DNA of 48,908 nt, taken from positions 1 through 48,908 of the IMG/VR virus record IMGVR_UViG_3300041411_000157, one strand, 5' to 3'. The stretch is from a virus. Position 1 is the first letter of the stretch. Every line of letters begins with the position of its first letter. The notes under the pieces are model-generated. The model did not search any database. It saw nothing but the letters and a program-made list of their open reading frames with translations, and was not told where the DNA came from. The position numbers were made by a program, and so were the translations under genes. Shown here piece by piece: positions 2,466 through 47,410 of the stretch.

Positions 2466-2508
2466 CACCTGGGCGCCTGGCGCCCACTCATTCATAGCTG
2501 GAGAGCCC

Positions 2509-2928: not shown

Positions 2929-3528
2929 ATGATCACTCTCGACATCCAGGGCTTTCAGGAGCTGCAAGACGAGCTCATGAAGGAATTGAGCGCGCTGAAG
3001 TCCGACAAGGTGGTCACGATCGGCATTCATGAAGAGGCCGGTAACGTCGAGTCCGGCGACATCACCATGGCCGGGCTTGGCGCCACTCATGAGTTCGGCG
3101 CCGACATCAAGCATCCGGGCGGCACGTCGTATGGGTATGCCAGCAAGGCTGCGTCCGAGCGTGATGAGGTGCGCTTCTTGAAGAAGGGCGCGGGCTATAT
3201 GGAGTTGGGCGTCACCCAGGCGCACACCATCAACATACCGGCGCGGCCATGGCTTGAGCCAGGGGTTGCGAGCGCAACGCCTGAGGTTTTACTGACCATT
3301 CAGGACGGTATGGAGGCTGGGCAGTCGATGGATCAGATCCTTGAAGCCATAGGCGTAGTAGCCGCTGGGAAGGTGAAGGTCTACATGACCGAGCTCAAGA
3401 CGCCGCCCAACGCTGCCTCAACCATCCGCCAGAAGGGCAGCTCAAACCCACTGATTGATTCCGGCGCCATGCGCCAGTCGGTCACGCACAAGGTGTCTAT
3501 TGGCCCGGCCGAGGAGGGATTAGATTGA
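2929..3528 (+). CDS. Head-tail joining / tail completion protein
   Basis: A 199-residue protein with features of the HK97 gp10 / virion morphogenesis group: an early VVTIGIHEEAG strand, GATHEFGADI, then IPARPWLEPG (around residue 104) and a C-terminal NPLIDSGAMRQSVTHKV segment. These proteins sit at the head-tail interface. It begins immediately after the DUF4054-like gene and overlaps the next gene by 4 bases. Confidence 0.65.
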   Translation: MITLDIQGFQELQDELMKELSALKSDKVVTIGIHEEAGNVESGDITMAGLGATHEFGADIKHPGGTSYGYASKAASERDEVRFLKKGAGYMELGVTQAHTINIPARPWLEPGVASATPEVLLTIQDGMEAGQSMDQILEAIGVVAAGKVKVYMTELKTPPNAASTIRQKGSSNPLIDSGAMRQSVTHKVSIGPAEEGLD

Positions 3529-8733: not shown

Positions 8734-9041
8734 TGTTCGTGATCCCACTACGCCCCGGCGCTGAAAATGCGCACCAGCGTTTCGCCGTGCAACTCGGGGA
8801 GAGCCTGATCGAGTTCGAGGTCGACTTCATTTCCTATCTGGATTCGCCGGCTTGGTCGATGAACCTGGTGCGCGATGGCAGTCGCCTTGTGTCCGGGGCA
8901 ATGCTCGAGCCTGGCAGTGACGTGATCCAAAGCTACCGCACAGGTATTGGCCAGTTGGTGTTCGCCGGTGCCAACGTGACGCTGGCCAACCTTGGCGTCG
9001 ACAACTTCCTTGTCTGGATACCCCCACTGGTGGAAACATGA
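8733..9041 (+). CDS. Baseplate plug-like protein
   Basis: A 102-residue beta-rich protein matching the baseplate plug (DUF6983-like) group: early IPLRPGAENAHQRFAVQLG, then EFEVDFISYLDSPAWSMNLVRDG, and a closing LGVDNFLVWIPP. These small proteins pack in the hub between tube and spike. It overlaps both neighbours by 1-4 bases, implying tight coupling. Confidence 0.65.
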   Translation: MFVIPLRPGAENAHQRFAVQLGESLIEFEVDFISYLDSPAWSMNLVRDGSRLVSGAMLEPGSDVIQSYRTGIGQLVFAGANVTLANLGVDNFLVWIPPLVET

Positions 9042-10453
9042 GAGAGCGAGTTTGGTCACTGGATGTGAACGGCCAGCCGTACATCAGTCCTCAGTACGGG
9101 AGACGCCAGTTTCGTGTTCAGTTCAATATCGACATCTCGCCAGGTGATGCAATTTCGTTTGCTGATCTTCGGCTGTACAACATGAACAAGGGGTCGAGCA
9201 TCGCTCAGGGTTCGAGCATCGTCTTTCGCGCCGGCTTCGACGACAACATCGACGCGGTGTTCACCGGGTTTGTAACCAACACGCTGCGCGAGCGCGAGCC
9301 AGGTCAGCCTGAAATTATCACTCGGCTGATCTGCCGCTCTGGCCAGCCTGCGGTGGACCGGGCATCTGCCCAACTATCGTTCGGCATCGGCACCCGAATT
9401 GAGGAGGTTCTGCGCGCCCTGGCTGCCGCGTGGCCGCTGCCGATTGACATCGACAACGCTCAATTCGCGGACGCGAAGCCGTTGTCTTCCGGGCTGGTGG
9501 TTGACGGTGATATCCCTGCCGCCATGACTGATCTGGCGTACGCCTACAAGTTCGAATGGATGCAGGACCGCGGGCGCATCGTTGTGACGAAGCCCAACAT
9601 GCCGCGCACCGCAGCGGCGGTGAAGGTCGATCAATTTAGCGGCATGATAGGGATTCCAGAGGTGTCGCGCGGGCCCGATGGCCTGGGCGTTTTCGTTTCT
9701 GTCCAGCTCAATCCGTCGCTGCGCATCAACGGTAAAATCGACGTCGAGAGCGAGTTCGCGACCTTTAACACTGGCAACCTGTTCGTATCCGAATTGAGTG
9801 GTGATGCCAGCGCGAACGGTGAGTACAACGTCTTCGCGATGAAGCACGCCGGCGACTCGCACAGCGACGTTTGGCGCACTGAAATTGACGGCCTGCGCGC
9901 ACAAACAGCTCCGCCGGCGACTCAGGTGTCCACGCCAGAGAATGGAAAGCTGATCTGGGGCGCCAGGGTTGACCAGGATTTCCGCGTCAAGGTGCGCGAC
10001 ATCGCCGGCAGGCTCTCAACCGATTCCAACTGGCTGATGGCTGTGATGGGGTTCGAGACCGGTTACACGTTCAGTCCTGCGGCGCGCAATCCAGGCAGCA
10101 CGGCGACCGGGCTTATCCAGTTCATTGAGTCGACAGCCAGGGGGCTTGGAACCTCCACTGCACAGCTGGCACGCATGACCGCAGTGCGTCAGTTGGATTA
10201 TGTGGAGGATTACTACCGTCCCTATAACGGCCGCATCAGGAATCTGGGTGATGCCTATCTCGCCGTCCTGTGGCCAGCAGCAGTGGGGCGCCCCGACTCA
10301 TACGTGATGTGGGAGCGTGACACCGGGCCGTACCAGCGCGAGTACGCCGCCAACTCCGGTCTCGATGTGAACCACGACGGTGTCATTACCCGTGGCGAGG
10401 CGGTCGCATCGGTCAACACGTCCTACATGCGCGGGCAACAGTTCGTGCGATAG
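9038..10453 (+). CDS. Baseplate hub with lytic transglycosylase-like domain and EF-hand
   Basis: A 471-residue fusion. Residues about 1-290 are hub-like (gp27/gpD type). Residues about 325-425 look like an SLT-type lytic transglycosylase: MGFETGYTF with candidate catalytic Glu340, then TATGLIQFIEST (about 355-366), typical of goose-lysozyme-like folds. Near the C-terminus DVNHDGVITRGE (443-454) is a canonical 12-residue EF-hand loop (D443, N445, D447, E454), so calcium binding is likely. It would cut peptidoglycan as the tube crosses the periplasm. It overlaps the plug gene by 4 bases. Confidence 0.8.
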   Translation: MRERVWSLDVNGQPYISPQYGRRQFRVQFNIDISPGDAISFADLRLYNMNKGSSIAQGSSIVFRAGFDDNIDAVFTGFVTNTLREREPGQPEIITRLICRSGQPAVDRASAQLSFGIGTRIEEVLRALAAAWPLPIDIDNAQFADAKPLSSGLVVDGDIPAAMTDLAYAYKFEWMQDRGRIVVTKPNMPRTAAAVKVDQFSGMIGIPEVSRGPDGLGVFVSVQLNPSLRINGKIDVESEFATFNTGNLFVSELSGDASANGEYNVFAMKHAGDSHSDVWRTEIDGLRAQTAPPATQVSTPENGKLIWGARVDQDFRVKVRDIAGRLSTDSNWLMAVMGFETGYTFSPAARNPGSTATGLIQFIESTARGLGTSTAQLARMTAVRQLDYVEDYYRPYNGRIRNLGDAYLAVLWPAAVGRPDSYVMWERDTGPYQREYAANSGLDVNHDGVITRGEAVASVNTSYMRGQQFVR

Positions 10454-19300: not shown

Positions 19301-20473
19301 TCATGCTGACTCCTCCTTAGGGAGTTGAACCGGCGTCCCGAACATTTCCACGGCGCGATTGCCGGAAGTGTCGTTCTCGCTGGGTATCCATCGGCCGTAG
19401 ACTCGGGCGATCATAGTCCAGTCCTTGTGACCCATTTGTTTGGCGACCCACATTGGGTGCTCTCCGGCCGAAAGCATCATCGATGCGTATGTGTGCCGGG
19501 TCTGGTAGGGGTTCCGATACCGAACCTTCGCCTTCCTGAGCGTCGGTATCCAGAAGCTTTTGCGAATAGCCTGATCGCCGTCGAACGGCTTGCCGTATCG
19601 CGAGTCATGGAAAATCACGTCACCTTCTATATAGGTGTGCACCTTCTGAGCCGTCAGCGCCTCCAGCGCCATTGGCAAAAGCTTCACGCTCCGAATCCCC
19701 GCTGCCGTCTTCGGCAACTCTGCTTCCTTGGCCGCTCTGGTCAGTCCTCGCGATATCCGTATCTCCCCACGCAACCAATCCACATCCCCCCATTCAACTG
19801 CAATGAGTTCGCTTGTGCGCAGCCCGGTCCATATGGCGAACTGCAACAGGTTCCGGTATTGGCCGTCGGTGCCGGCCAGAATCAGCCGCTGTTCCTCAGG
19901 CGAGAACGGGTCGATCTCGTCCTCCGTCTTCGGCTTCTCCCTGACCGAGTACGTCCAGCCCGCCATAGGGTTGATCTCGATCAGTTCGTCATGCACCGCA
20001 TCGTTCAGCGCCGACCGTAGGCAGCTCTGTACGTTGGACAGTCGCTTGTTCGAAGCGTCCATGCTCGCCATAGCCTCCTTGACCATCTTGCGACTGAGCA
20101 GCACCAGGGGGTGGTCGCCCAGCTTCGGCACCAGAACCCCGTCGATGATTTTCCGATAGCCATCGATCGTACTGGCCTTCAGACCCTTCTCTTTCTTCTC
20201 CAGCCAGCTTGCGAGGTATTTCGACAGCGGGACTTGCCCTGTCTGATATCCAAGCCGATTGGCTCGCTTGGACTTGGGGAAGGTGGCCAGATAGTCGAAC
20301 GTGCCGTTGTAGATCGCCAGTTCGATAGCCGCCTTGTGCTGCTCGGCGCGCTTCAGATTAGCGGGGCTGGGCTCAATTGGGAGCCGCTCGCGGCACTGGG
20401 CGCCCTCGAGCATGAAGGTGATCTCAATGCTGCTCTTGGACGCCGCTCGAACGCCGCTGCGCTTTCCACCCAT
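19301..20473 (-). CDS. int: Tyrosine integrase
   Basis: A 390-residue site-specific recombinase. The N-terminal arm-binding part (GVRAASKSSIEITFM, DUF3596-like) is followed by a SAM-like core-binding domain (about 80-180) and the catalytic domain with Arg219 (TGLRTSEL), Arg326/His327 (YQTRHTYAS), His349 (MGHKD) and Tyr359 (ARVYGRW). The excisionase reads into its 5' end by 121 bases. It inserts the phage at attP just downstream. Confidence 0.92.
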   Translation of the reverse strand: MGGKRSGVRAASKSSIEITFMLEGAQCRERLPIEPSPANLKRAEQHKAAIELAIYNGTFDYLATFPKSKRANRLGYQTGQVPLSKYLASWLEKKEKGLKASTIDGYRKIIDGVLVPKLGDHPLVLLSRKMVKEAMASMDASNKRLSNVQSCLRSALNDAVHDELIEINPMAGWTYSVREKPKTEDEIDPFSPEEQRLILAGTDGQYRNLLQFAIWTGLRTSELIAVEWGDVDWLRGEIRISRGLTRAAKEAELPKTAAGIRSVKLLPMALEALTAQKVHTYIEGDVIFHDSRYGKPFDGDQAIRKSFWIPTLRKAKVRYRNPYQTRHTYASMMLSAGEHPMWVAKQMGHKDWTMIARVYGRWIPSENDTSGNRAVEMFGTPVQLPKEESA

Positions 20474-24639: not shown

Positions 24640-25563
24640 TTAGGCAGCAGCCTGCATCGCTTCGATAATGCGTTGCCCGGCCAGTGGTGGAACCGCGTTG
24701 CCAGCCATGTGCATGGTCAGTCGATGATTGTCCGGGCGCTTCGTGTCGGCAGGAAACGACATGGCGGCAAGCGCTTCGCTCGCCGAGAGCATTCGCATCT
24801 CGTCGCCGCGCACCAGGGCCCACCGATCAAGCGTGGTAATGGTCCCTATCGGGCGCTCCAGGCTTCGGCCAGTAAGCCCAGAACCTGATCCGTAGTAAGG
24901 CATGATGAATCGGTCACCGAATCGCTCTCGACCATTCTTCACGCGCAGCAAAGTCGACTCGGCGCGCCCTGGCTTCACAACCTTGCTCCACTTGCCCGCA
25001 TCAAAGTCGATGAACGAGGAGGCTGGGACATGCTTGCGCTGGTGCAGCTGAAGATTCAGTGGGGCCTTGCTTCTGGTGCAGACCAGAAACAGGCGCACGC
25101 GGTGTTGCGGTACGCCGAGATCGGCGCAATCAACGACATGCGGGGCGATCATGTAGCCGAGTGCTGCCATTGCCTGCGACCAAGCGGGATACAAAGCCCA
25201 GGCTGTGAACTCCTCGACATTCTCCACCAGCACCACTTCGGGCCGGTGAAACTCGGCAGCAGACACAACCGCCCATGCGGTGGATCGAGATGCATCATGC
25301 TGAGCATTTCCAGACTTCTTGCCGCGCGCCTTCGAATGCCCCTGACAGCACGGCGAGGCGAGCATGATGTCGTGCGCGGGGACCTGCGACCAATCTGCCT
25401 GATGTAGATCCTGGCAAATGTGAATCGCATCAGGATGGTTGGCGCTGTGCCACTCAACGGCGACCGGCCAGTGATTGGCGGCCCAGAGAACGTCGATACC
25501 GGCGTTTCGGGCACCGGTGGACCATCCGCCAAGACCGGCGAACAAATCAATTGCAGTTGACAT
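24640..25563 (-). CDS. DNA (cytosine-5) methyltransferase, orphan
   Basis: A 307-residue C5 methyltransferase of the Dcm type, modifying host or phage DNA. Motif I DLFAGLGGWSTGA (6-18), motif IV ASPCCQGHS with catalytic Cys72, motif VI ENVEEF (114-119), motif VIII QHRVRLFLV (153-161), and a C-terminal GNAVPP are visible in the right order. ATG 25563 has GGAG. No restriction endonuclease is next to it, so it probably protects phage DNA from host enzymes. The recognition sequence cannot be read from the gene. Confidence 0.88.
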   Translation of the reverse strand: MSTAIDLFAGLGGWSTGARNAGIDVLWAANHWPVAVEWHSANHPDAIHICQDLHQADWSQVPAHDIMLASPCCQGHSKARGKKSGNAQHDASRSTAWAVVSAAEFHRPEVVLVENVEEFTAWALYPAWSQAMAALGYMIAPHVVDCADLGVPQHRVRLFLVCTRSKAPLNLQLHQRKHVPASSFIDFDAGKWSKVVKPGRAESTLLRVKNGRERFGDRFIMPYYGSGSGLTGRSLERPIGTITTLDRWALVRGDEMRMLSASEALAAMSFPADTKRPDNHRLTMHMAGNAVPPLAGQRIIEAMQAAA

Positions 25564-25613
25564 TTTGTGCTCCAAAATCAGGTGCGGGGAGAGCGGTTTT
25601 CTGGTCGGCCCTG

Positions 25614-26483
25614 TCAGAGCGCTCCGCTAACCCGCTCATACTCGGAGTCAAGCAGCGAGTCGTCTTGATCTTCATCGGTGGCCGCCGACAAAAAGGCCGT
25701 GACGATCGGAGCGACGGCCTTGGCCTGAGTGATCAGGAACAAATGCCCGTCGTCGATGACGTGCAGTTCGGAGTTCGGAATCAGGTTGGCCAGGATGCGC
25801 ATGTTGACCAGCGGGATCAGTGGGTCATCGTTGCCGGCCAGGACCAGGGTCGGCTGCTTGATTCGGTGCAGCCAGTGGATTGAAGTCCACCAGTAAACAG
25901 CCGCCATCTGGTAGTAATAACCTCGGCCGCCTGCCGACTTCATCTTGCTGGCGTGAGCGGTGGCCAGCGTTTTGTCGTATCTGAACGATCCGCCGTAGAT
26001 GTCCGGCGCGATCTCCGCCCCGTGCTCGGGGTTGGTGTAGCGCAGCGGACTGGCCATCAGCGCCAGGACTTTCGGGGATGGCGGGACGCTGAGCACGCCG
26101 GCCGAAGTCGCAGCCAGGATCAGCTTGCCGCAGCGCTTCGGGTGATCGTGAGCGAACTGCTGGGCGAGAAAGCCGCCCCATGAAACGCCGATCACATTGA
26201 CCTGATCGTATTCGAGCGCATCCAGCATCTTGGCGACGGTCCTAGATAGGCCCTTGAAGCTGTATGGCAGGAGCGGAGCAGGAGAGCCGCCAACGCCCGG
26301 AGCATCGAAAGCAATCACCTCCTGATCCGGGTCGAGCTCCTGCACGAAGGGGAGAACCAACTCAAGACTCGCGCCGATACCATTGAAGACCATCAACGGA
26401 GTCAGGTGAGGCGTGCCGGGGCGTACCGCAGTGCGGATGGATTGGCCGTCGATGTTCAGTGTGCGGAAAACAAACGCCTTCAT
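25614..26483 (-). CDS. phaZ: Alpha/beta hydrolase resembling PHA depolymerase PhaZ
   Basis: A 289-residue protein that matches, as I recall it, the Pseudomonas intracellular medium-chain polyhydroxyalkanoate depolymerase along its length: FRTLNIDGQSIRTAVRPGTP, FNGIGASLELVLPFVQ, TSIHWLHRIKQPTLVLAG. The nucleophile is Ser101 in GVSWGG, with Asp220 and His247 (DDGHLF) as partners, almost the same numbering as the known triad. The enzyme would cleave stored PHA granules to hydroxyacids in the cytoplasm; there is no signal peptide. It has its own GGAG site and shares the direction of the retroelement and methyltransferase genes. Substrate not proven. Confidence 0.82.
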   Translation of the reverse strand: MKAFVFRTLNIDGQSIRTAVRPGTPHLTPLMVFNGIGASLELVLPFVQELDPDQEVIAFDAPGVGGSPAPLLPYSFKGLSRTVAKMLDALEYDQVNVIGVSWGGFLAQQFAHDHPKRCGKLILAATSAGVLSVPPSPKVLALMASPLRYTNPEHGAEIAPDIYGGSFRYDKTLATAHASKMKSAGGRGYYYQMAAVYWWTSIHWLHRIKQPTLVLAGNDDPLIPLVNMRILANLIPNSELHVIDDGHLFLITQAKAVAPIVTAFLSAATDEDQDDSLLDSEYERVSGAL

Positions 26484-26543
26484 TCGATTGCTCCGTGCAG
26501 CCGAAATCCCGCCAGGGCGTTCAGCGCATTAAAAGGGGAAGAG

Positions 26544-27704
26544 TTATTTCTTTGGGTATGTCTTTGTCAGTGCGCCATTGACGCTGTGACCGCGTTTCAG
26601 AACGACACGAGCCAATTTCTCCCGGTCTTTTTCACTGTGGCTGGCCTGGCTGAGCAGGCCGAAATAGCTGTTGGCGGTTTCGCGAAGATCCTCGGCCGGT
26701 GCCGCAGCGGTCCGTTTGAGGGCCTGAGCCAGCGAACGCTTTCGGGTTGATCGCCGCCACGGCTTGATGACGTGGCCAACGAAGTCGACGCCGCGATCTA
26801 CCGGCTGAAGGATGGTCTTCGATGGGTTTAACTTGGCGCCGAGGCTTGGCAGGAATGCTTCGACCTCTGCCAGCCAGGCGTTGAGTTGTTGCGGCGACTC
26901 ATGCAGGAACACGAAGTCATCTACGTAGCGGACGTAATGCTTGGCGCCGAGCTTGTGCTTGGCGAACTGGTCCAGCGCGTCGAGGTAGACGTTGGCGAAG
27001 AACTGCGACGACAAGTTGCCGATCGGCAGTCCGAGGTGCGCAGGTTGCGCGGTCAGGCGTTTGTGCTGCGGCACCCGGTTGAACAGATGGGCCGGACTGC
27101 GTACCTCGTAGTCTTCGCGAGGGTCGTGCATCAGGATCTGTTCAGCGAGTGCCAGCCACCACGGCTCAGTGATCTTGGCGGCGAGCTGCTTGCGCAGAAC
27201 CTCTTTGTCGATCGCGACGAAGAAGTTGGCCAGGTCGCACTTGAGGTAGAAGAGCGGCTTCGACCAGTTCTGGCTGGCGCTGCGGATCTTAGCCTCAAGC
27301 CGGGTGGCGGCGTACAACGTGCCGCGCCCAGGAATGCATGCGCAACTGTCCGCTATGAAGCTGGCGTAGAAGCGCGGTGCCACTCGGTTGTACAGAAGGT
27401 GGTGGACGACGCGATCCCGGAACGCTGCAGCCCAAACCTCGCGGGCTTTCGGTCGGGTGACCACGAAGCATATCGAGCGGCCTGGCCGGTAAGTGCCGGT
27501 GATCAGGTCGTCGTGAAGTTTGATCAAGTTGCGCTCCAAGTCCATTTCGAAAGCCAGCGCACTGGCGCTGTTGCGCTTCGTGCGGCGGCAGTCGTAGTAG
27601 GCCTGGACAAGATCGCTGAACGGGTAGGGACCAACAGTCGAATCTGCGGACGGGGCGGACACGGAGCTCGTTGTTCTTGTCGTTGTTGTTCTGATTGCCA
27701 TCAT
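26544..27704 (-). CDS. Reverse transcriptase of a diversity-generating retroelement
   Basis: A 386-residue reverse transcriptase. DGR-type motifs are clear: RRTKRNSASALAFEMDLE, RDRVVHHLLYNRVAPRFY, FYLKCDLANFF (catalytic Asp), GLPIGNLSSQFFANVYLD and YVRYVDDFVF (catalytic DD, about 248-257). It copies the template repeat RNA with errors at adenines. The conserved N-terminal domain leaves no start downstream of the template repeat, so the start (ATG 27704 or 27701) lies inside the template repeat. The first 20 or so residues (rich in Thr and Ser) are template-encoded. Confidence 0.92.
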   Translation of the reverse strand: MMAIRTTTTRTTSSVSAPSADSTVGPYPFSDLVQAYYDCRRTKRNSASALAFEMDLERNLIKLHDDLITGTYRPGRSICFVVTRPKAREVWAAAFRDRVVHHLLYNRVAPRFYASFIADSCACIPGRGTLYAATRLEAKIRSASQNWSKPLFYLKCDLANFFVAIDKEVLRKQLAAKITEPWWLALAEQILMHDPREDYEVRSPAHLFNRVPQHKRLTAQPAHLGLPIGNLSSQFFANVYLDALDQFAKHKLGAKHYVRYVDDFVFLHESPQQLNAWLAEVEAFLPSLGAKLNPSKTILQPVDRGVDFVGHVIKPWRRSTRKRSLAQALKRTAAAPAEDLRETANSYFGLLSQASHSEKDREKLARVVLKRGHSVNGALTKTYPKK

Positions 27705-27744
27705 CGAAGTTCATGTTGAATGCGTTGTTGGCGGAGCGCTGCGA
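27644..27744 (-). repeat. DGR template repeat (TR)
   Basis: 101 bases sharing fixed ends with the two variable repeats. On the coding (minus) strand it is rich in AAC codons; reading it in the target frame gives SANNAFNMNFDDGNQ then NNNDKNNELRVRPVR. The template differs from the variable repeats only at adenines (12 and 17 sites). The final 27 bases, CGAGCTCC through CCGTCCGCAG, are identical in all three copies and act as the homing-initiation (IMH-like) part. The repeat overlaps the 5' end of the reverse transcriptase frame. Confidence 0.93.
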
Positions 27745-27915: not shown

Positions 27916-28272
27916 TCAGGTGGCGGGCGCGGTTGGGGTGGAGCGTTTCCAGGCGTTTGCCTGTTTGCCAATCGAGGTGGTGACCTCTATTGCATTGGCA
28001 TGCTGCGGAACGCTGATGAATCGGCTCTCTTTGAAAAGCCGCATCAGGAACTCGATCACCTGGACCTTCTCGACCAGCAAGGTCAGGTGTGGGCGTTTGT
28101 CAGGCGTCGCGTTGGCCCGAGCGATCAACATCAGCACGTCGATGCACTCATCGATGACGCGCTTCCCGAGCGACTGCTTCAGGTCTCGGGGAATGTTGCG
28201 AGTGAGGTTCGTGGCCATCTGGAGCAGGCCGAGTGAAACCTTGTAGATCTGCAAGTCCGTGTGCATCGCCAT
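27916..28272 (-). CDS. avd: DGR accessory variability determinant (Avd-like)
   Basis: A 118-residue all-helical protein of the Avd / four-helix-bundle type: HTDLQIYKVSLGLLQMATN, IPRDLKQSLGKRVIDECID, RPHLTLLVEKVQVIEFLMRL. Avd forms a pentameric barrel that binds the reverse transcriptase and template RNA. The start at 28272 has GGAG 9 bases upstream. It lies between the variable gene and the template repeat, the standard DGR order. Confidence 0.85.
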   Translation of the reverse strand: MAMHTDLQIYKVSLGLLQMATNLTRNIPRDLKQSLGKRVIDECIDVLMLIARANATPDKRPHLTLLVEKVQVIEFLMRLFKESRFISVPQHANAIEVTTSIGKQANAWKRSTPTAPAT

Positions 28273-28293
28273 GGGCGCGCTCTCCAAGAGCAA

Positions 28294-28325: not shown

Positions 28326-28946
28326 TTAATCAATCAATTGACTGCGGACGGGGCGGACACGGAGCTCGCTGCCCTTGCCGTAGAGGTCCTGATAGCCATC
28401 ATCGAAGTACATGAGGAATGCGTTGTTGGCGGAGCGCTGCGAAGATGACCAGTACCAGGTGTCTTTGAAGGCTTCGGCGCCACCTTCTTGGAAGGCTGCC
28501 AGCATGGTCTGAGCCGGTGATTCTTCGGTGTACAGCAGACCGACAGGCTCGCTGTTCGGGTTGTCGCCGCTGCGCCCGTACTGCCAGTTCGTTTCGGTGG
28601 TCGGTTTGAAGTGGCGATACTGCAGCTCTTGCACGTCGCGCGCCGGGATCGCCCAGTCGTTGAAGCCGCCGATATCCAGAGCCAGCACCTGCTGTGCCAG
28701 TTCGCTGCTAGCCGCTGCCATCGCCTCGGTGTTAGCGCGGCTGTTGGTGAAGCTGTCAGCACCTTCGATCTTCTCGCCATACTCGCCCCAAGCACCGCTC
28801 AGTTCGTGCGCGGCGCCGGCGGTGATGTTCAGGTAGCGCTTGCCGGTGTCCGGGTCACGGTTAATGCCGGAGAAGAACCCGCCGCCGAAGGGCTGGCCGA
28901 TTTCCGGGATGGTCACTGCTGGTGCTACTTGAGCTGCTGCGGACAT
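28326..28946 (-). CDS. DGR target protein 1 (DUF1566/C-type-lectin-like)
   Basis: A 206-residue protein whose last 40 residues contain variable repeat 1. The body has DUF1566-like, formylglycine-enzyme/lectin-fold features: GGFFSGINRDPDTGKRY, LALDIGGFNDWAIPARDVQEL (about 95-115), DTWYWSSSQRSANNAF, and the end ELRVRPVRS. Variable residues in the repeat fall at template Asn codons. ATG 28946 has AGAGG. There is no signal peptide or fibre-like stalk, so how it reaches its ligand is open; it may be a virion surface protein. Confidence 0.85.
   Translation of the reverse strand: MSAAAQVAPAVTIPEIGQPFGGGFFSGINRDPDTGKRYLNITAGAAHELSGAWGEYGEKIEGADSFTNSRANTEAMAAASSELAQQVLALDIGGFNDWAIPARDVQELQYRHFKPTTETNWQYGRSGDNPNSEPVGLLYTEESPAQTMLAAFQEGGAEAFKDTWYWSSSQRSANNAFLMYFDDGYQDLYGKGSELRVRPVRSQLID
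28342..28442 (-). repeat. DGR variable repeat 1 (VR1)
   Basis: 101 bases aligned without gaps to the template repeat. There are 12 differences, all at positions where the template coding strand has A. They change Asn codons to Leu, Tyr, Asp, Gly, Ser and others within the 3' end of target gene 1. Confidence 0.93.
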
Positions 28947-28971
28947 GATCTTTCCTCTTTTCGAAGGCAAC

Positions 28972-28991
28972 AAAAAAGGCGCTGCTGCGCC
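28972..28991 (-). terminator. Rho-independent terminator after target gene 2
   Basis: On the minus strand GGCGC, loop AGCA, GCGCC is followed by six Ts (28977-28972). It lies 32 bases after target gene 2 and 45 bases beyond variable repeat 2. It could also be the hairpin needed for target recognition at VR2. Confidence 0.75.
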
Positions 28992-29022: not shown

Positions 29023-29634
29023 TTAAATAAAGAATCTGCGGACGGGGCGGACACGGAGCTCGACGCCCTCGACGCCGTAGTGCTGAAAGCCAACAACGAA
29101 GTGCATGTAGAATGCGTAGTTGGCGGAGCGCTGCGATGAGGACCAGTAGTAGCAGTCCTGAGCGAAGACCTCAGGACAGCTCAACCAGCCCTGATACAGC
29201 TCGGCGGCGGCCGGCAGGTAGAAATCATGATGACCATCGGCCTGGTACTCGGCGCAAGCATCGGCTGCTGGATACTTCCTCTCGTCGTCGTTGCCAATCA
29301 GAACCTGGGTGTTGGTGTAGCCGTCGGTTTTGCTGAGGCCTTTCACCTCAACTCCACGGCCGCCCCACTCAAGACTGCCGACATCCCTGGCGGCGATGAT
29401 CAGGTAGTGCGCAGGAACATCGCCGCGAGCCGCAACCAGTCCGCCATTGAAGCCGCCTTGGCCGGGCCACTCAGCGCCGAGCGCTGGGATGTTGGTTGGT
29501 GCGATTGGCTGGACATTCGCCGCCGGCGGCAGCACCAGGGCAAACGTGCTGGCCAGCGCCAGCTTTGCCAGTTGTGACGCTGGCATCTTGATCGTGGTGT
29601 CACCGTGTTTGAGTGTGATCATTTCGGGTTTCAT
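29023..29634 (-). CDS. DGR target protein 2 (DUF1566/C-type-lectin-like)
   Basis: A 203-residue protein with variable repeat 2 at its C-terminus. The N-terminal 30 residues (MKPEMITLKHGDTTIKMPAS) include a predicted strand and hydrophobic helix but no clear signal peptide. The body has GGFNGGLVAARGDVPAHYLI, HHDFYLPAAAELYQG, and YYWSSSQRSANYAFYM, ending ELRVRPVRRFFI. It shares the fold signature and repeat with target 1 but differs in the N-terminal half. GAGG precedes the ATG. A terminator separates it from target gene 1. Confidence 0.85.
   Translation of the reverse strand: MKPEMITLKHGDTTIKMPASQLAKLALASTFALVLPPAANVQPIAPTNIPALGAEWPGQGGFNGGLVAARGDVPAHYLIIAARDVGSLEWGGRGVEVKGLSKTDGYTNTQVLIGNDDERKYPAADACAEYQADGHHDFYLPAAAELYQGWLSCPEVFAQDCYYWSSSQRSANYAFYMHFVVGFQHYGVEGVELRVRPVRRFFI
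29036..29136 (-). repeat. DGR variable repeat 2 (VR2)
   Basis: 101 bases, gap-free with the template. There are 17 differences, all at template adenines (coding strand). The match to the template continues 4 bases further at the 3' side (GAAT before CTGCGG on the plus strand). Confidence 0.93.
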
Positions 29635-29751
29635 GTGATACCTCGTTGGTTCCAGTCAGGCGCCGCCCTCCGTGACCGGTGGTGGCAATTTGGTTTGGGT
29701 TGGGGTATTTGTGTTCGGCCCGGCATGGAGCCGGAACCGAAGGGGTGTTGA

Positions 29752-30387: not shown

Positions 30388-31038
30388 CTACTGCTTTGGC
30401 TCTTTCGCGAAGAAGGCCGGCTGAGGCCCTGAAATACGCTTCGGGTAATCGATGTCGAACTTTGCAAGGATGCGGGCAAAGGTTTTGAATGTGACACCGA
30501 GCTGCCCCATAGCCTGGTTGCGCGAAAGGCCGATCTCTATGAAGGCCTTGATACGCTCGGCGCGCTTCTCGTCTTCTGCATCAGTGATGCGGCGGGGTCG
30601 CATATTGTTGTGGCCGTTATTTGTCGCTGGCAGGAATTTGAAGCCGCCTTCCACAGCGATTCGTTGGAGAGATCGTCGAGGCATGCCGGTCTGTTCGACG
30701 GCCTGTGCGTAGGTCGTGGTTTCGGCCAGCTTTCGGATTCGCTCAATCTGATCGACTTTGTCCTTTTCCCGTTGCGCATTGCGCGCTTCGCGATCGATGT
30801 CTCGCTGCGTGAGCTTGTCGATGTAGGTCGTGCTGGGCTCGGCCCGGTTCGCCGACTTGATCACCTTTACGCTCGGCGGCGGCTCATGCCTCACGGGTGG
30901 CGGTACGAAGCTCGGCCCCTGCAACACCTCAATAGCCCCTCCTTTGTTCAAGAAGACCTCCTGAAGCAGGGCCAGTTCGTGGCGTTGAGGGTCGAGCATT
31001 TGGATCATGGAAAGCTCGGTGCTGACGTATGCGTTCAT
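30388..31038 (-). CDS. Helix-turn-helix early protein
   Basis: A 216-residue protein. The central segment (about 100-135, KLAETTTYAQAVEQTGMPRR) is a HTH, and a second HTH-like segment near the end is FIEIGLSRNQAMGQLGVTFK. A long charged helix separates N-terminal and HTH parts. It overlaps the stop of the exonuclease gene (ATGA). Role in regulation or recombination is inferred from position. Confidence 0.6.
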   Translation of the reverse strand: MNAYVSTELSMIQMLDPQRHELALLQEVFLNKGGAIEVLQGPSFVPPPVRHEPPPSVKVIKSANRAEPSTTYIDKLTQRDIDREARNAQREKDKVDQIERIRKLAETTTYAQAVEQTGMPRRSLQRIAVEGGFKFLPATNNGHNNMRPRRITDAEDEKRAERIKAFIEIGLSRNQAMGQLGVTFKTFARILAKFDIDYPKRISGPQPAFFAKEPKQ

Positions 31039-32657
31039 GCTGCCACCTGCTCCAGGGTTACCCCCGGCACGTTGAATTCAGAACCTTGGGCATCGACAAG
31101 ATCATCGAGGCCTTTCCAGTTAACGGTCAGCACGCTGATTGGCACTTGACCGGCCGCCACAGCCTTCACCAGCGCATCGAGATCGGTCACCCGCGCTTCG
31201 AGCTTCATCGGCTTTGGCTGAACCTTGGCGGATGGGGCCACTGCCGAAACGCGCGATGCAGGCTGTTCAACTCTTACTGGCACAGGAGTCACTACCGGCT
31301 CGACTTGTTTCGCCTTTTCAGCATCGGCGATCTTCTGCAGCTCTTCTTCGCGAATCCGCTTACGAGTGGCTTCGGCTTTCTCTTCCTCGGCTTTCTCATG
31401 TTCCGAGATCCGAAATTTGATCAGCGTCACCAGATCGTCATTGGCCTTCGTTACCAACTGCTGAATGTCACTGAACAGGAAGGAGTGGTCGGTGGCGAGC
31501 TCGGCCAAGCTGGTCAGGTTCAGACGAATACAGTCAGCCGCCTGGCTGGCGTCGATCTTCGCTCGGGCCAGTTCGGTATCCACGGCATCCTGCAAGCTGG
31601 CGATGGTTCGCTTGTTTTTCATGGCGCCAAGGAAGTCAGCGGCGACTGCCGGCAGCGCCACTTTGCCCAGCGTCTTGTTGATTGCCGCGATGTGGTCAGC
31701 CAGCGCCTGCTCGGCCTTCTGCTTGATGTTCGACTTGACCAACAGCTCTTGCGCCTTCACCAGCTTGTCGACCTTCAGGCGAGTTTCGCGGGCGTGCGCC
31801 GAGACGCGATCCAGCGAGGAAAACAGTTCGTCGATGGTTGCGGTCTGGGATAACGCCTGCTTCTTCGCTGCCGCGACGGCTTCCTCGACATCGCCGCACC
31901 ACTTCACAGCCTTCTTCGCGTCGGCGAAGTCTTGATCGGTGGTCAGTTCGGTTTTCACCGAGTCGATGACCGCCAAGGCCGATCGCTCGAACACTTTCAG
32001 GTTGCTGGCGGTAACCATGCCGGTAAGTTCAATGCGCAGCGCTGGAAGCTCGTCAGGCGCCTTGCCGACGACAATCGACGGTGCGTCGGCCATCTCGAAG
32101 TTTGCCAGATCGGCCTCGAACTGCTTCCAGCCTTCGACCAGCTGTTCGGCACGGCCGGCGACCGGGCGATATTCCATGCTGACGAAGTTTTCGGCGGTGC
32201 CGTCCGAGCAAACGAAGATCACTTTCTCAGCACCACTCACCAGCAGTTGCTGTTCGAGCTGCCAGTAGTAATGCGGGGCTAGATCTCCAGCCCTCACCTG
32301 GGCGACCAGCGATTCGTTCCAGAGCTTGTGCTCGAACAATGTCTCTCCGAGCATCGTCGCGCCGTCCATCGACGCCAGCAGGTTGCCCAGCGTGCCAACT
32401 ACCGGATACAGCTCTTCCCCGATCAGCGCTTCGACCAGCGGACGGGCCGATGCTTCAGTGGCGTGACCCTTGTCGAAGATGTACTGCTGCGGCGGGGTAA
32501 CGTCGGCGACGATGCCGGTCTTCTTCATCGCGAGCAGTTCGGTGCGGGTCTGGTACTTCGACGCGCCTTGCATTGCCGGCGCTTCGGATGCGGTGAAGTG
32601 CTTGGCGCGCAATGCATGCCACTCGGCGGAGCCTTGGGCTACGTTATGAATAATCAT
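31035..32657 (-). CDS. YqaJ/lambda-exonuclease-like recombination nuclease
   Basis: A 540-residue protein. The N-terminal 220 residues fit the YqaJ viral recombinase domain: GSAEWHALRAKHFTASEAPAM, FDKGHATEASARPLVEAL, SMDGATMLGETLFEHK with acidic metal ligands, and HYYWQLEQQLLVSGAEK. The C-terminal 300 residues are mostly helical coiled coil. It would digest 5' ends of double-stranded DNA and hand single strands to Bet. It overlaps the Bet gene by 4 bases and has GGAG upstream. Confidence 0.82.
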   Translation of the reverse strand: MIIHNVAQGSAEWHALRAKHFTASEAPAMQGASKYQTRTELLAMKKTGIVADVTPPQQYIFDKGHATEASARPLVEALIGEELYPVVGTLGNLLASMDGATMLGETLFEHKLWNESLVAQVRAGDLAPHYYWQLEQQLLVSGAEKVIFVCSDGTAENFVSMEYRPVAGRAEQLVEGWKQFEADLANFEMADAPSIVVGKAPDELPALRIELTGMVTASNLKVFERSALAVIDSVKTELTTDQDFADAKKAVKWCGDVEEAVAAAKKQALSQTATIDELFSSLDRVSAHARETRLKVDKLVKAQELLVKSNIKQKAEQALADHIAAINKTLGKVALPAVAADFLGAMKNKRTIASLQDAVDTELARAKIDASQAADCIRLNLTSLAELATDHSFLFSDIQQLVTKANDDLVTLIKFRISEHEKAEEEKAEATRKRIREEELQKIADAEKAKQVEPVVTPVPVRVEQPASRVSAVAPSAKVQPKPMKLEARVTDLDALVKAVAAGQVPISVLTVNWKGLDDLVDAQGSEFNVPGVTLEQVAA

Positions 32658-33472
32658 GCTGCATCTCCATCGAGGGCTTTGAGATTGGTGATGGTTTCGA
32701 TCTGCTCCGCGCTCAGCGTGTATTTGCTGCGGATTGTCGCGATCAGGTGCTCAGGGCTGGTTCGGCCCGAGTCGATCAAGGGTTGCCACTTGACGACGTT
32801 TTCTTTCAGCAGTTCGTCCGGGTAGCCAGGTAGCGCTTCCGGCTCGGGCTGCGCCTGCTGAATTGGCGTTACATCGCGCACGGCTTCTTCGAATGCCTTG
32901 CCTTCCATCTCGTCAGCCGTCGGGGCCGATCCAACTTCGGGGAATGCCTTGCGCAAGGCTTGTGCCTCGGCGCACTTGGCGAGCTGGGCAAAGGCCCGGC
33001 GCTTCCACATCGCGTTCGGCGCGGCGCTGTCCTTGCTGGCGGTGGCGTAGTTTTCAAGCCAGCGCTCGTTGGCAGTGAATTCAGCGACAAGCCCGTTGGC
33101 CATCTGGCGCTTGACGGTCACTCGGCACCATTCCGGATAGGTGACATCGACGCCCGACAGCTTCGCGGTGATCGGCGGTCCGTATTCTGGGTCGCTGATC
33201 CCGGCGTATTGCCCGGTACGCGCCGCCTGAATTCGGTACAGGCCAATGCCCGGCATGACCGTGTCCTGCATCTTTTTCGTGTCTTTGTTCCAGATCGGTA
33301 CGATGTGCACCGGCTTCAGCATTGGGTCCAGGTGGGCGGCCTGGCAGTAGGCCAACACCATCACGACTGAATTGTGCGCAGCGCCCGGGTACAAGCTGCT
33401 GCTCAAAACCTCGACGAGTGCCGACTCCGACAACGCTGGCAAGTTTTCGGCCTGCTTCATTACTGCTGACAT
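32654..33472 (-). CDS. bet: Single-strand annealing protein (Bet/RecT-like)
   Basis: A 272-residue recombinase like lambda Bet: the core has YCQAAHLDPMLKPVHIVPIW, MPGIGLYRIQAARTGQYAG, and WKRRAFAQLAKCAEAQALRKAFPE (about 155-180). It anneals single strands after YqaJ-type digestion. ATG 33472 is chosen for GGAAGGA spacing; an earlier in-frame codon at 33490 is poorer. Confidence 0.88.
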   Translation of the reverse strand: MSAVMKQAENLPALSESALVEVLSSSLYPGAAHNSVVMVLAYCQAAHLDPMLKPVHIVPIWNKDTKKMQDTVMPGIGLYRIQAARTGQYAGISDPEYGPPITAKLSGVDVTYPEWCRVTVKRQMANGLVAEFTANERWLENYATASKDSAAPNAMWKRRAFAQLAKCAEAQALRKAFPEVGSAPTADEMEGKAFEEAVRDVTPIQQAQPEPEALPGYPDELLKENVVKWQPLIDSGRTSPEHLIATIRSKYTLSAEQIETITNLKALDGDAA

Positions 33473-33512
33473 GGGGATTCCTTCCGCCATGCAGGCGGCG
33501 TATGAGTTCGAA

Positions 33513-37335: not shown

Positions 37336-38064
37336 TTATTTACGGCGCGGAGAACGCCTGACGGTCGACCACCAGAAAACTCGGCCAAGCATTCTTACGT
37401 CGTCGGTGAATTGCTCAGCTGTCATGACTTCGTCGGGGAAGTCTTCAGAATTCTCGCTGCGAATTCTCACGCTACCACCAGGTAGTCGGTGGAGGTATTT
37501 CACCCTGAGCATACCCAATTGGTTGAAGGCGTAGATCTCGCCGTCAATGATTGAGGTGTCATCCAGATCGAAGCCAATCGCTGCGCCATCCAAAATAAGA
37601 CGCTCCATGCTACGGCCTTTAATCCTGGCACAAGCAGCGCTCTTGGCCTCAACGCCCGCTGCCTTTAATGTGGCACCGCTGAATCTGAGCTTCCTATCGG
37701 CAATTTCAACGACTTCAGACATACCCTGTCCACCGGCAAATTCGACTTCAGCAAAGTACGGTATTTCATACTCGTCGTCATCTAAGGATTCGCCTTCCTC
37801 CCACGCGTCCATATCCCCCAGCAGCTCAGCGTTCGCCTCGATGTGAGTCAGCCGCCCCTTCATCTCGCCGATACCATCAGAGAGCCATATGGCGCTCACG
37901 GAGCAGGCGTGGGCGATCTTCGCGATATGAGCGCTCTGTAGGTTCTTCCCTGTCTCAAGCTGGGAGATAACTGGCTGCTCAACGCCCACAAGCTCGGCGA
38001 GCTTTTTTTGCGTCAGGCGAGCGCCTTGGCGAGCCATTTTGATGCGGTTGGCAAGAGTATTCAT
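37336..38064 (-). CDS. cI: CI-like repressor with LexA-type (S24) autocleavage domain
   Basis: A 242-residue lysogeny repressor. The N-terminal HTH (about 5-60) contains RLTQKKLAELVGVEQPVISQ. The C-terminal S24 domain has the cleavage site EFAGG (Ala110-Gly111), nucleophile Ser152 (GRSMERL) and Lys189 (LRVKYL), so RecA-stimulated self-cleavage and SOS induction are expected. The ATG at 38064 is only about 9 bases from the -10 box of PRM, so the message may be nearly leaderless as in lambda. It probably binds the ATAAGC-type palindromes on both sides. Confidence 0.9.
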   Translation of the reverse strand: MNTLANRIKMARQGARLTQKKLAELVGVEQPVISQLETGKNLQSAHIAKIAHACSVSAIWLSDGIGEMKGRLTHIEANAELLGDMDAWEEGESLDDDEYEIPYFAEVEFAGGQGMSEVVEIADRKLRFSGATLKAAGVEAKSAACARIKGRSMERLILDGAAIGFDLDDTSIIDGEIYAFNQLGMLRVKYLHRLPGGSVRIRSENSEDFPDEVMTAEQFTDDVRMLGRVFWWSTVRRSPRRK

Positions 38065-38073
38065 CTTCACAAC

Positions 38074-38101
38074 GTTATAAGCCCTCTTATCTTCTTGCAA
38101 A
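38074..38101 (-). promoter_or_regulatory. Repressor maintenance promoter PRM
   Basis: On the minus strand TTTGCA (38101-38096), 16 bases, TATAAC (38079-38074), with the repressor ATG 9 bases further. It shares sequence with the divergent PR promoter, and an operator covers its -10. Confidence 0.65.
38077..38090. promoter_or_regulatory. CI/Cro operator between cI and cro (site at PRM)
   Basis: ATAAGCCCTCTTAT, matching the operator palindrome with one mismatch. A further half-site ATAAGC lies at 38101-38106. Confidence 0.7.
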
Positions 38102-44126: not shown

Positions 44127-44687
44127 ATGGCACTGACCCCAAAGCAGGAGGCCTTCTGCTTGGCCTACCTGAAGACGGGTAACGCCAGCGAGGCCTACAG
44201 GCAGGTATACGCTGCCAAGAACATGAAGCCAGCCACCATCAACGTGAAGGCGAGCGAATTGCTCTCTAACGGTAAGGTGACGGTAAGGCTTGCAGAGCTC
44301 AACCAATCGGCCGTGACCGACTCTGTGATGACCCGTCAGAGAGCCCTGGAGCGCCTCAGCCTGATTGCCGAGACATCCATCACCGACATCCTTGAGTTCG
44401 ACCAGCATGAGGTTGGCGGGCCTGACGGGCCTATCAGCGAAACCATCTGGCGCATGAAGGATAGCGACGAGATCCACGACATGGCATCGGCCACCATCAA
44501 GTCGGTGACCATGACCAAGTTTGGTCCAAAGATCGAGATGTATGACCGCCTGAGCGCGATTCAGCAGCTCGCCAGAATGCAAGGCTGGGAGTCTGCACAG
44601 AAGCATGACCATACCAGCAGCGACGGCAGCATGAGCCCCAAAGGGAAGTCTCTGGACGACTTCTACACCGGCGATGTACCAGCTTAA
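44127..44687 (+). CDS. terS: Terminase small subunit
   Basis: A 186-residue protein. LTPKQEAFCLAYLKTGNASE (about 3-22) then KPATINVKASELLSNGKV is the typical terminase small-subunit HTH region, which recognises the packaging start. ATG 44127 has GGAG 7 bases upstream. It overlaps the large subunit by 14 bases. Confidence 0.88.
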   Translation: MALTPKQEAFCLAYLKTGNASEAYRQVYAAKNMKPATINVKASELLSNGKVTVRLAELNQSAVTDSVMTRQRALERLSLIAETSITDILEFDQHEVGGPDGPISETIWRMKDSDEIHDMASATIKSVTMTKFGPKIEMYDRLSAIQQLARMQGWESAQKHDHTSSDGSMSPKGKSLDDFYTGDVPA

Positions 44688-46017
44688 CCCGAACCTTCGT
44701 GAGTTCTGGCGGATCAGGAAGCCGTACAAGCTTCTGAAGGGTGGGCGGTTCTCATCAAAGACCCAAGACGCGGGCGGCATGGCTGCCTTCCTGGCTCGCA
44801 ACTACACGGTGAAGTTTCTCTGCATTCGCCAGTTCCAGAACCGTATCGCCGATTCGGTGTATACGGTCATCAAGGAAAAGATCGAGCAAGCAGGTTGGTC
44901 GGACGAGTTTGATATCGGCGTGTCGTCGATCAAGCACCGCAAGACCGGCTCGGAGTTTCTGTTCTACGGCATCGCCCGCAACCTGAACGACATCAAGGGC
45001 ACTGAAGGCGTCGACATCTGCTGGATCGAGGAAGGCGAAGGCCTTACCGAAGATCAGTGGAAAGTCATCGACCCCACCATTCGAAAGCAGGGGTCGGAGA
45101 TTTGGATTCTGTGGAACCCGGATCTGATGACCGACTTTGTCCAGGCCAAGCTTCCAAAGCTGCTGGGCGACGACTGCGTCATAAAGCACATCAACTATGC
45201 CGATAACCCGTTCCTCTCCGACACAGCACGCGCCAAGGCTGAGCGGCTTAAGGAGGCAGATGAGGAGTCGTACAACCACATCTATCTCGGCCAGCCGCGC
45301 ACCAACGATGACGCCGCGGTTATCAAGTTCTCATGGGTGGAGGCATGCGTTAACGCGCATCTGAAGCTTGGTATGAGCTTGGCCGGCGCCAAGGCTGTCG
45401 GGTATGACGTGGCGGACAGCGGCGACGACAGTAATGCCTGCGCCATGTTCGACGGGGCTATCTGCTTTGAGATGGACGATTGGAAGGCTGGTGAGGACGA
45501 GCTGAACGAGTCGGCAATGCGTGCCTGGTCTCACGTTCGCGGTGGGCGCCTGATCTACGACAGCATCGGCAACGGCGCTCACGTGGGTTCCACGCTGAAG
45601 GCTGCACGCATTCATGGCGGGTACTTCAAGTTCAACGCCGCCGGCGCCATCGTCAATCCTGAGAAGGAATACGCGCCGAAGATCAAGAACAAGGACAAGT
45701 TCGAGAACCTGAAGGCTCAGGCCTGGCAGGACGTGGCCGACCGTATGCGCAATACGTTCAACGCGATCACCAAGGGGCACAAGTTCAAAGCCTCCGACCT
45801 GATCAGCATCTCAGGCGACCTGAGAAAGATCGAGCAACTCAAGCTCGAACTGTCTACACCTCGCAAGCGCTACAGCAAGCGAGGGCTGGATATGGTCGAG
45901 ACAAAGGATGAACTGGCCCGGCGCAGTGTTGCGTCCCCCAACCTGGCTGACGCATTCGTGATGGGCGCATGCCCGCACCTGGTGGCAAACGGAAGGCCTA
46001 TTCGAGACCTCCTCTGA
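44674..46017 (+). CDS. terL: Terminase large subunit
   Basis: A 447-residue ATPase-nuclease of the PBSX type. The ATPase part has KLLKGGRFSSKTQDAGGM (Walker A region, about 19-36), VDICWIEEGEGL (Walker B) and WILWNPD (coupling). The nuclease part has VGYDVADSGDDSNA and ends with PNLADAFVMG. It pumps DNA into the prohead. Confidence 0.9.
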   Translation: MYQLNPNLREFWRIRKPYKLLKGGRFSSKTQDAGGMAAFLARNYTVKFLCIRQFQNRIADSVYTVIKEKIEQAGWSDEFDIGVSSIKHRKTGSEFLFYGIARNLNDIKGTEGVDICWIEEGEGLTEDQWKVIDPTIRKQGSEIWILWNPDLMTDFVQAKLPKLLGDDCVIKHINYADNPFLSDTARAKAERLKEADEESYNHIYLGQPRTNDDAAVIKFSWVEACVNAHLKLGMSLAGAKAVGYDVADSGDDSNACAMFDGAICFEMDDWKAGEDELNESAMRAWSHVRGGRLIYDSIGNGAHVGSTLKAARIHGGYFKFNAAGAIVNPEKEYAPKIKNKDKFENLKAQAWQDVADRMRNTFNAITKGHKFKASDLISISGDLRKIEQLKLELSTPRKRYSKRGLDMVETKDELARRSVASPNLADAFVMGACPHLVANGRPIRDLL

Positions 46018-46033: not shown

Positions 46034-47410
46034 ATGAGCAAGAAGGGCTTAGTGCCAGCAAACAAAAAGCTGGGCAAGGCCCTCAATCGGGCCTTGGTTG
46101 AGTATCAGGCCGGCACGAAGCACACCGCCGATGGATTGGTGAACGTCGTGTCCGGTCTGGGCACCCAGAAGGCCAAGCGCTCGCACAACCAGTTCCAGTA
46201 TGGGTTTCTGAACGACTTCCAGCAGTTGGACGCGGCATACCAGACCAGCTGGCTTGCCCGGGCGATCGTGGATTACCCCGCCGAGGACATGACCCGCGAG
46301 TGGCGCACCCTCAAGTGCGATGACGCCGACGTGATCCGGGCCGAGGAAGATCGGCTCAATCTGCCGGCCATGGTCAGCGAGGCAACCAGTTGGGCACGCC
46401 TATACGGTGGCGCTGGCATCCTCATGCTGACCAATCAGGACCTAACCAAACCGCTCAAGCCGGAGAAGATCAAGAAGGGCGACCTGTACCGCCTATTGGT
46501 CATTGATCGCTTCGACATGACAGCGATGGACCTGAATCAAACCAATATCCTGGCCGCGAACTACTTGCAGCCGGAGTTCTACACCGTCGCCGCCGGCGCC
46601 CAGATGATCCACTGGACACACTTCGCTCGATTCGCCGGTGCCAAGCTGCCACGCCGCCAGCGCGCACAGACACAAGGCTGGGGCGACTCGGAGCTGCGCA
46701 AGTGTCTCGACGACGTGATGGACATCGTTGCCAGTAAGGACGGCATCGCCGAGCTGATGCAGGAAGCGAACGTCGACATCATCAAGCGCGAAGGCCTCTC
46801 GGATGAGTTGGCAAGCGATCAGGACGACGCCATCACGGCGCGTTACGCCCTGTTCAGCATGATGAAGTCCTCGATCAACCTGGCGCTGCTGGATGGCGAA
46901 GAGACGTACGACCGCAAGACTCTGGACCTGTCCGGGGTTGCGCCGGTGCTTGACCTACTGATGACGTGGATTGCTGGCGCTGCCGATATCCCGCTCACCC
47001 GTTTGTTCGGCACGTCCGCCAAAGGCCTCAACGCCACCGGCGAAGGGGATATGGACAACTACTTCAACTCGCTTTCATCGAAGCGCCTTACCCAAATTGA
47101 CCCAGGCCTTCGTCAACTCGACGAGGTGCTGGTGCGCTCAGCTACAGGCCAGTGGCTGGAAGACTTCAACTACGTCTGGAACCCGTTCCAGCAGCCTGAC
47201 GTGGTGCAGATCGCCACGGCCAACAAGGCCAAGGCCGAGACCGACATCCTCTACAAGGACGCCGCCATCGTCACCACCAGCCAGATTCAGCGACGCCTAC
47301 AGGCCGAAGAGCTCTACCAGTTCGACGACGAGAAGATCGAAGCGCTGGAGGCTGATGAGGATTTGACCATGTTCAATGACCCAGTGGATGACGACGACAA
47401 AGGCGAATAG
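46034..47410 (+). CDS. Portal protein (DUF1073-like)
   Basis: A 458-residue protein with the DUF1073 portal pattern: FLNDFQQLDAAYQTSWLARAIVDYPAEDMTREWRTL, then RLYGGAGILML, and IAGAADIPLTRLFGTSAKGLNATGEGD (about 310-340), the conserved crown helix and loop. The C-terminus is very acidic. It forms the ring through which DNA passes. (Motifs longer than 20 residues are cited by position only: about 56-91 and 315-341.). Confidence 0.85.
   Translation: MSKKGLVPANKKLGKALNRALVEYQAGTKHTADGLVNVVSGLGTQKAKRSHNQFQYGFLNDFQQLDAAYQTSWLARAIVDYPAEDMTREWRTLKCDDADVIRAEEDRLNLPAMVSEATSWARLYGGAGILMLTNQDLTKPLKPEKIKKGDLYRLLVIDRFDMTAMDLNQTNILAANYLQPEFYTVAAGAQMIHWTHFARFAGAKLPRRQRAQTQGWGDSELRKCLDDVMDIVASKDGIAELMQEANVDIIKREGLSDELASDQDDAITARYALFSMMKSSINLALLDGEETYDRKTLDLSGVAPVLDLLMTWIAGAADIPLTRLFGTSAKGLNATGEGDMDNYFNSLSSKRLTQIDPGLRQLDEVLVRSATGQWLEDFNYVWNPFQQPDVVQIATANKAKAETDILYKDAAIVTTSQIQRRLQAEELYQFDDEKIEALEADEDLTMFNDPVDDDDKGE

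Follow-up and report, generated by a model that had tools for sequence, protein, structure and literature searches.

Does a phage genome carry an enzyme of its own for opening the PHA store of the host cell, and if so, where does the gene belong among its relatives and what would it serve for? The question is raised by a phaZ-like gene of a virus whose product had been predicted to be a PHA depolymerase. The window analysed here is the entire IMG/VR virus record with a length of 48,908 bases.

The phaZ gene and its position in the phage genome

4457-5599: tail sheath, virion module
9038-10453: baseplate hub, virion module
19301-20473, minus strand: integrase at the distal end of the leftward gene run (phrog_1, 1.4e-57)
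24640-25575, minus strand: C5 cytosine DNA methyltransferase, downstream neighbour of phaZ with a 38-bp gap (PF00145 4e-39, phrog_116)
25614-26483, minus strand: phaZ, intracellular mcl-PHA depolymerase-type alpha/beta hydrolase of 289 aa (TIGR02240, alignments, AlphaFold)
26484-26530, minus strand: conserved leader immediately upstream of phaZ, containing GGAG (comparison with contigs L002 and L096)
26544-27704, minus strand: DGR reverse transcriptase (RT), upstream neighbour of phaZ with a 60-bp gap (phrog_1423, 2.3e-118)
31035-32657, minus strand: RecE-like exonuclease in the leftward gene run of phaZ
32654-33490, minus strand: RecT annealing protein in the leftward gene run of phaZ
37336-38100, minus strand: CI-like repressor, marker of a lambda-like control region (phrog_4, 1.2e-45)
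44674-46017, plus strand: terminase large subunit, virion module
46034-47410: portal, virion module

The phaZ reading frame starts with ATG, encodes 289 aa without internal stops and has the ribosome-binding site GGAG immediately 5' of the start codon. A sigma-70-like promoter was not found at the gene, and the promoter and terminator scans around it remained at the chance level. The leftward run from CI comprises RecT, RecE, the DGR, phaZ, the methylase, HNH and, as the last gene, the integrase. The original prediction had placed phaZ between the methyltransferase and the DGR in the phage direction, and all of these genes were located on the minus strand as described. An antirepressor and an O-like protein are encoded rightward from the CI region. 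The virion module runs from the terminase and portal via head genes to the tail sheath and baseplate. The integrase and the CI-like repressor indicate that the phage is temperate and, judging by CI, integrase and tail sheath, the record is a lambda-like temperate myovirus. Among the DNA relatives of the window in the annotated phage collection, every one naming a bacterium was a Pseudomonas phage; on the basis of these relatives, Pseudomonas is the predicted host.

Family assignment and catalytic residues

The PhaZ of the window scored 434.5 bits with the NCBIfam model TIGR02240, "poly(3-hydroxyalkanoate) depolymerase", over residues 4-267 of 289. TIGR02240 is an equivalog model with a curated cut-off of 250.6 bits. 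The other hydrolase families of NCBIfam were more than 300 bits below this score, each under its own cut-off, and Pfam gave only general alpha/beta-hydrolase families. All 28 proteins scanned, from phages, chromosomes and plasmids, matched the model as well. The call of a PHA depolymerase, for which an HMM search had been proposed as a check, was thus borne out by the match far above all other hydrolase families.

The catalytic triad consists of Ser101 (GVSWGG), Asp220 (NDDP) and His247 (DGHLF), and its numbering equals that of P. putida PhaZ, S102/D221/H248, minus one residue. The same three residues had been predicted originally and were upheld by the alignment with P. putida PhaZ. The residue alignment included the window protein and 22 further phage proteins, along with three PhaZs from chromosomes and two from megaplasmids; a second alignment had 27 rows. 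The triad, the NGIG loop and the Asn35 position were invariant across the 27-28 aligned PhaZs, those of jumbo and temperate phages included. In the window protein the FNGIG loop is present, with the essential Asn at position 34.

The P. putida enzyme (PhaZKT, triad S102/D221/H248) is highly specific and acts almost only on mcl-PHA; its activity is abolished by the loss of the FNGIG loop (34-38), Asn35 or the hinge 190-195, and altering the lid costs activity (PMC12504323). A single change near the lid can uncouple the activities, so that the esterase activity is kept with little depolymerase activity (PMC12504323). The lid hinge segment is present in the window protein, but it reads YYYQMA instead of the YYWQLF of chromosomal copies (190-195 in PhaZKT), and the other phage PhaZs have further differing sequences. 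The nucleophile is followed by SWGGF in most phage PhaZs versus SWGGA in the chromosomal ones. As the hinge is changed and single changes near the lid uncouple the activities, the substrate could have shifted, and the altered hinge is the main reason for caution on the substrate of the window PhaZ.

An AlphaFold model built from the 27-row alignment (mean pLDDT 89, pTM 0.87) resulted in an alpha/beta-hydrolase with a helical lid. The lid, approximately residues 130-200, is modelled as a helical insert between the strands 118-124 and 212-217, and the C-terminal tail from about residue 268 was of low confidence. The closest structures of the model in Foldseek were Est1-type esterases with a TM of about 0.8, while B. 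thuringiensis PhaZ was lower (TM about 0.75, 19-20% identity). Est1 and an N-acyl-homoserine-lactone-degrading esterase are among the nearest relatives with a solved structure; a solved relative close by sequence was not found for the mcl-PhaZ family, and the BFVD structure search with the model gave only distant hydrolases. The N-terminus, MKAFVFRTLNIDG, runs directly into a strand. A secreted (extracellular) PHA depolymerase was excluded by the absence of a signal-peptide-like stretch and the presence of a lid in the model. By family, triad and lid, the product of the window gene was confirmed to be an intact PhaZ, the hydrolysis of mcl-PHA itself being inferred; the original prediction had likewise called the substrate inferred.

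The phaZ cassette and the adjacent DGR

27641-27744, minus strand: DGR template repeat (adenine-specific mismatches to both variable repeats)
27916-28293, minus strand: DGR accessory protein Avd (phrog_3206, PF22296)
28326-28973, minus strand: DGR target protein 1, variable repeat approximately 28339-28442 (phrog_4245)
29023-29634, minus strand: DGR target protein 2, variable repeat approximately 29033-29136 (phrog_4245)

The leader of phaZ is about 45 bases long; it has the same sequence in L002 and L096 and almost the same in L003, and the genes preceding it can differ. The phaZ of L096 shares only 79% of its DNA sequence with the window despite the identical leader. The core of the leader is carried by only three other IMG/VR contigs. 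The leader is probably a cassette border. The DGR block of the window has 80-84% identity to its counterparts in SC_8_H2H8_2017 and Cruim01, and the match ends at the RT stop codon; in Cruim01, small unknown genes occupy the slot between the RT and the methyltransferase. The end of the match and the different content of the slot imply that phaZ was inserted as a cassette. The PhaZs of phage relatives with the gene in the same slot were 92-94% identical to that of the window.

A second conserved leader (TTGCCACCACCGG..CACGGAGGGCGGCGC) is located at 29650-29735 (minus strand) in the window, 7853-7936 in L096, 6768-6816 in L003 and 5958-5999 in L166. It precedes different genes in different Pseudomonas phages and resembles a boundary sequence for cassette exchange; the window phage, which has this leader, encodes RecE/RecT.

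The mismatches of the DGR template to the variable repeats fall on template adenines in 13 of 15 and 17 of 17 cases, which indicates that the DGR of the window is real and has been active. The near relatives L002 (5246-5908) and L003 (6280-7890) have kept the DGR target genes and phaZ without an intact RT: the RT is reduced to its last 43 codons in L002, and HNH-like and DNA methyltransferase-like genes are in its place in L003. The targets of these two phages may be frozen or served in trans.

Occurrence of phaZ in other phages

The scan of IMG/VR with the phage PhaZ alignment yielded 47 loci, and 57 were obtained with a wider alignment. PhaZs with at least 53% identity to that of the window are encoded by at least 54 IMG/VR contigs (54 of the 57 loci); the contigs with phaZ range from 5 to 307 kb. 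When the first 47 loci and the window were grouped by shared neighbouring genes, 12-14 gene contexts were distinguished. These include the window type, a 90-kb phage, an rIIA-bearing contig, a siphovirus-like context in which phaZ is oriented against the capsid genes and a terminator-like hairpin comes after it, and jumbo-size contigs (228-307 kb) with proteins similar to those of jumbo phages of Erwinia and Pseudomonas. The gene had been regarded as a single unusual case; its residence in a phage was corroborated, its uniqueness was not. PhaZ was absent from the cultured phages (50,697 GenBank phage records), where the best matches were unrelated hydrolases with 23-32% identity.

PHA synthase (PhaC) was found in none of the 48 viral records, the window included, whereas phaC flanks phaZ on both sides in the control genome L013. 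The window phaZ is located outside any phaC1-phaZ-phaC2 locus, which is a feature of the genome context and not of the enzyme. Neither phasin nor AMP-forming acyl-CoA synthetase was detected in the 24 larger phaZ phage records, and hence the phages add a single enzyme to the host pathway. A phage-borne PHA pathway was ruled out by the absence of all three from the records scanned.

In the 307-kb phage L107, the thymidylate synthase (1804-3144) has 446 aa compared with a profile of 335 positions and aligns lengthwise to regions of Pseudomonas jumbo phages which are split into two features in their annotation. This suggests that the gene is interrupted by an insert, for instance an intein or intron.

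Selection and relationships of phage PhaZs

The pairwise dN/dS values between the phage phaZ copies were 0.02-0.21, by which purifying selection on the gene was shown at the level of codon comparison. The GC content of phaZ, from 0.41 to 0.62, follows that of its own phage. PhaZ is encoded by 363 of 399 Pseudomonas genomes, and the closest copy reaches about 71% identity with the window protein. In an evenly drawn sample of Gammaproteobacteria, TIGR02240 was detected in only one of 229.

In the IQ-TREE tree of 66 rows, the 18 chromosomal PhaZs formed one group (93/97), and all 42 viral PhaZs together with two megaplasmid copies were on the other side (90/82). In a wider quick tree of 81 rows, the 30 chromosomal operon PhaZs were one clade (SH-aLRT 100) without any viral member, positioned inside the viral diversity with weak branches. 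One clade made up of viruses only had been suggested by the 66-row tree, with two plasmid copies beside the viruses, and was lost in the 81-row tree, although the AU test did not reject the viruses alone as one clade (p 0.235). The window PhaZ grouped with the Pseudomonas-type mcl PhaZs and viral relatives and not among unrelated esterases, the placement that would have refuted the original prediction. Because the operon PhaZs form one clade that includes no phage PhaZ, the safe reading of the trees is that the phage PhaZs have long circulated among phages and are not recent captures from the sampled hosts, the direction of transfer being open. A recent capture from a sampled Pseudomonas chromosome was ruled out by the best identity of about 71% and the separate 30-row operon clade.

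Orphan phaZ genes without phaC were observed on two Pseudomonas megaplasmids and one chromosome (L019/L225; L137, NZ_CP143488.1, 433105-433896; L224). These cellular PhaZs group with phage PhaZ and not with operon PhaZ, which leaves the direction of the ancient transfer all the more open. In the phage group L116, L118, L122 and L125, the L116 PhaZ keeps the chromosomal-type SWGGA, and the placement of the group differs between the 66-row and 81-row trees; a separate acquisition of phaZ by this group is possible.

As a tentative idea, which we hold to be rather doubtful, the phage PhaZs could be an old phage-circulating pool that predates the radiation of the Pseudomonas operon PhaZ, has been exchanged among temperate, siphoviral and jumbo phages, and gave rise to the orphan copies on megaplasmids or even to the operon gene. 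If this were true, the mobilisation of PHA granules would be a takeover strategy of Pseudomonas phages in general, hidden by cultivation in rich medium.

Proposed role and alternative explanations

The window gene probably encodes a functional phage intracellular mcl-PHA depolymerase which mobilises host PHA for phage replication; its activity, substrate, timing and benefit are inferred from sequence. The enzyme would be expressed together with the leftward recET...int operon, either at an early stage of infection or upon induction, and would bind to the PHA granules of the host. Its serine triad would cleave the polyester to (R)-3-hydroxy fatty acids, from which acetyl-CoA and reducing power for phage replication would be obtained by the host acyl-CoA synthetase and beta-oxidation. 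Polymer synthesis would meanwhile be outrun. The phage would contribute only the mobilising step, and the remainder would be host-encoded. The mobilisation of mcl-PHA has been described as a Pseudomonas trait (PMC12504323), and together with the near absence of TIGR02240 from the evenly drawn Gammaproteobacteria, the host range fits the proposed role. Since the host cells already have PhaZ, the gain from a second copy is not obvious. The occurrence of PhaZ in dozens of very different phages, outside the main clade of their hosts, suggests that raiding of the host carbon store is a recurring viral strategy.

The main doubt concerns the substrate. PhaZ might have drifted to another ester (a host or membrane lipid, a quorum signal or a defence-related compound), with PHA no longer the main substrate, as the identity to chromosomal PhaZ of at most about 71%, the changed lid hinge and tail, and the esterases among the nearest solved relatives would allow. 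Such a drift is unlikely, considering that the score is 184 bits over the equivalog cut-off and that the essential loop and triad have not varied from jumbo to temperate phages; moreover, the cellular relatives are almost restricted to Pseudomonas within Gammaproteobacteria, like mcl-PHA mobilisation itself. It is also conceivable, with slightly less credence, that PHA is degraded but the gain is physical or regulatory: granules can take up a large part of the cell, and their clearance would make room for replication compartments and virions or remove granule-bound proteins. The presence of phaZ in jumbo-size phages, which need much intracellular room, and the lack of downstream pathway enzymes beside the depolymerase agree with this, but small temperate phages of 40-50 kb have phaZ too, and PHA-poor cells are in no need of clearing.

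Expression of phaZ from the prophage, aiding the starvation survival of the host via faster PHA turnover, would make it a lysogenic-conversion gene. The window phage is temperate, and in the L112 group phaZ is solitary and oriented against the virion genes, with a bidirectional terminator-like hairpin behind it, which is a moron layout. This explanation is nevertheless very unlikely: the window phaZ lies inside the recE/recT leftward run, where CI repression is expected in the lysogen, the jumbo-size contigs are similar to phages from lytic groups, and the host has a PhaZ already. Practically nothing speaks for host DNA misjoined to or packaged in the phage contig except that PhaZ is a normal chromosomal gene of Pseudomonas. 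No chromosomal PhaZ above 71% identity exists among the 363 Pseudomonas genomes, PhaC is missing from the 48 viral records, and the gene is conserved between same-slot phage relatives; host-flank contamination was ruled out by the first two of these. The earlier statement that phaZ is not a stray host flank is in agreement with its phage neighbours, the Pseudomonas-phage DNA relatives and the absence of PhaC. The mobilisation of stored PHA for phage replication remains the preferred reading.

Novelty, significance and comparison with known systems

A phage-encoded PhaZ was not found in the open-access papers searched, which did not include most subscription papers or any bioRxiv preprints. The distinct and widespread set of phage PhaZs and the mobilisation of a storage polymer as a phage function appear to be new, while the enzyme family is known. 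Of the features of a phage auxiliary metabolic gene, a viral location between phage genes, a homologue in host metabolism and an intact frame under selection were observed, while a change of host metabolism to the advantage of the phage is inferred. The finding opens a direct test of whether phages live on stored polymer and could account for the source of carbon when starved cells of the soil or rhizosphere are infected. It is of relevance for PHA production strains and for the fate of PHA carbon after lysis, and it provides a divergent natural set of PhaZs with altered lid hinges for bioplastic recycling.

The chromosomal PhaZ of Pseudomonas (PhaZKT, phaC1-phaZ-phaC2) shares with the window protein the fold, the triad, the position of the lid, the NGIG loop, the length, the flexible C-terminal tail and the membership in TIGR02240. 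In contrast, the window PhaZ is at most about 71% identical and outside the sampled operon clade, its hinge and, in most phage copies, the residue after SWGG are different, and phage phaZ is solitary, without PhaC, phasin and acyl-CoA synthetase. The orphan PhaZs (L019 of P. serbica, NZ_CP143488 of P. silesiensis and L224) resemble the phage PhaZ as solo genes without adjacent phaC, but they are on cellular replicons with no phage genes evident nearby, and such a second copy is present in two of 399 Pseudomonas genomes.

Phage auxiliary genes for PHA synthesis (phaC, phbB, fadJ etc.) have been described in PHA-producing mixed cultures; some of them are very similar to the host copies, and a depolymerase or phaZ is not mentioned (PMC12013262). 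The storage polymer is shared with these genes, whereas the window phaZ represents the degradation side and is divergent from the host operon copies. The phage enzymes called tail-spike or EPS "depolymerases" act from the virion and degrade capsule or exopolysaccharide; only the name is common with the window PhaZ, a serine hydrolase that lacks the features of a virion or exported protein. The well-known phage auxiliary genes concern photosynthesis, nucleotide supply, and sulfur and phosphate metabolism. An enzyme by which a virus opens the carbon store of the host would be a different route, freeing the phage from dependence on whatever nutrients are present when infection occurs.
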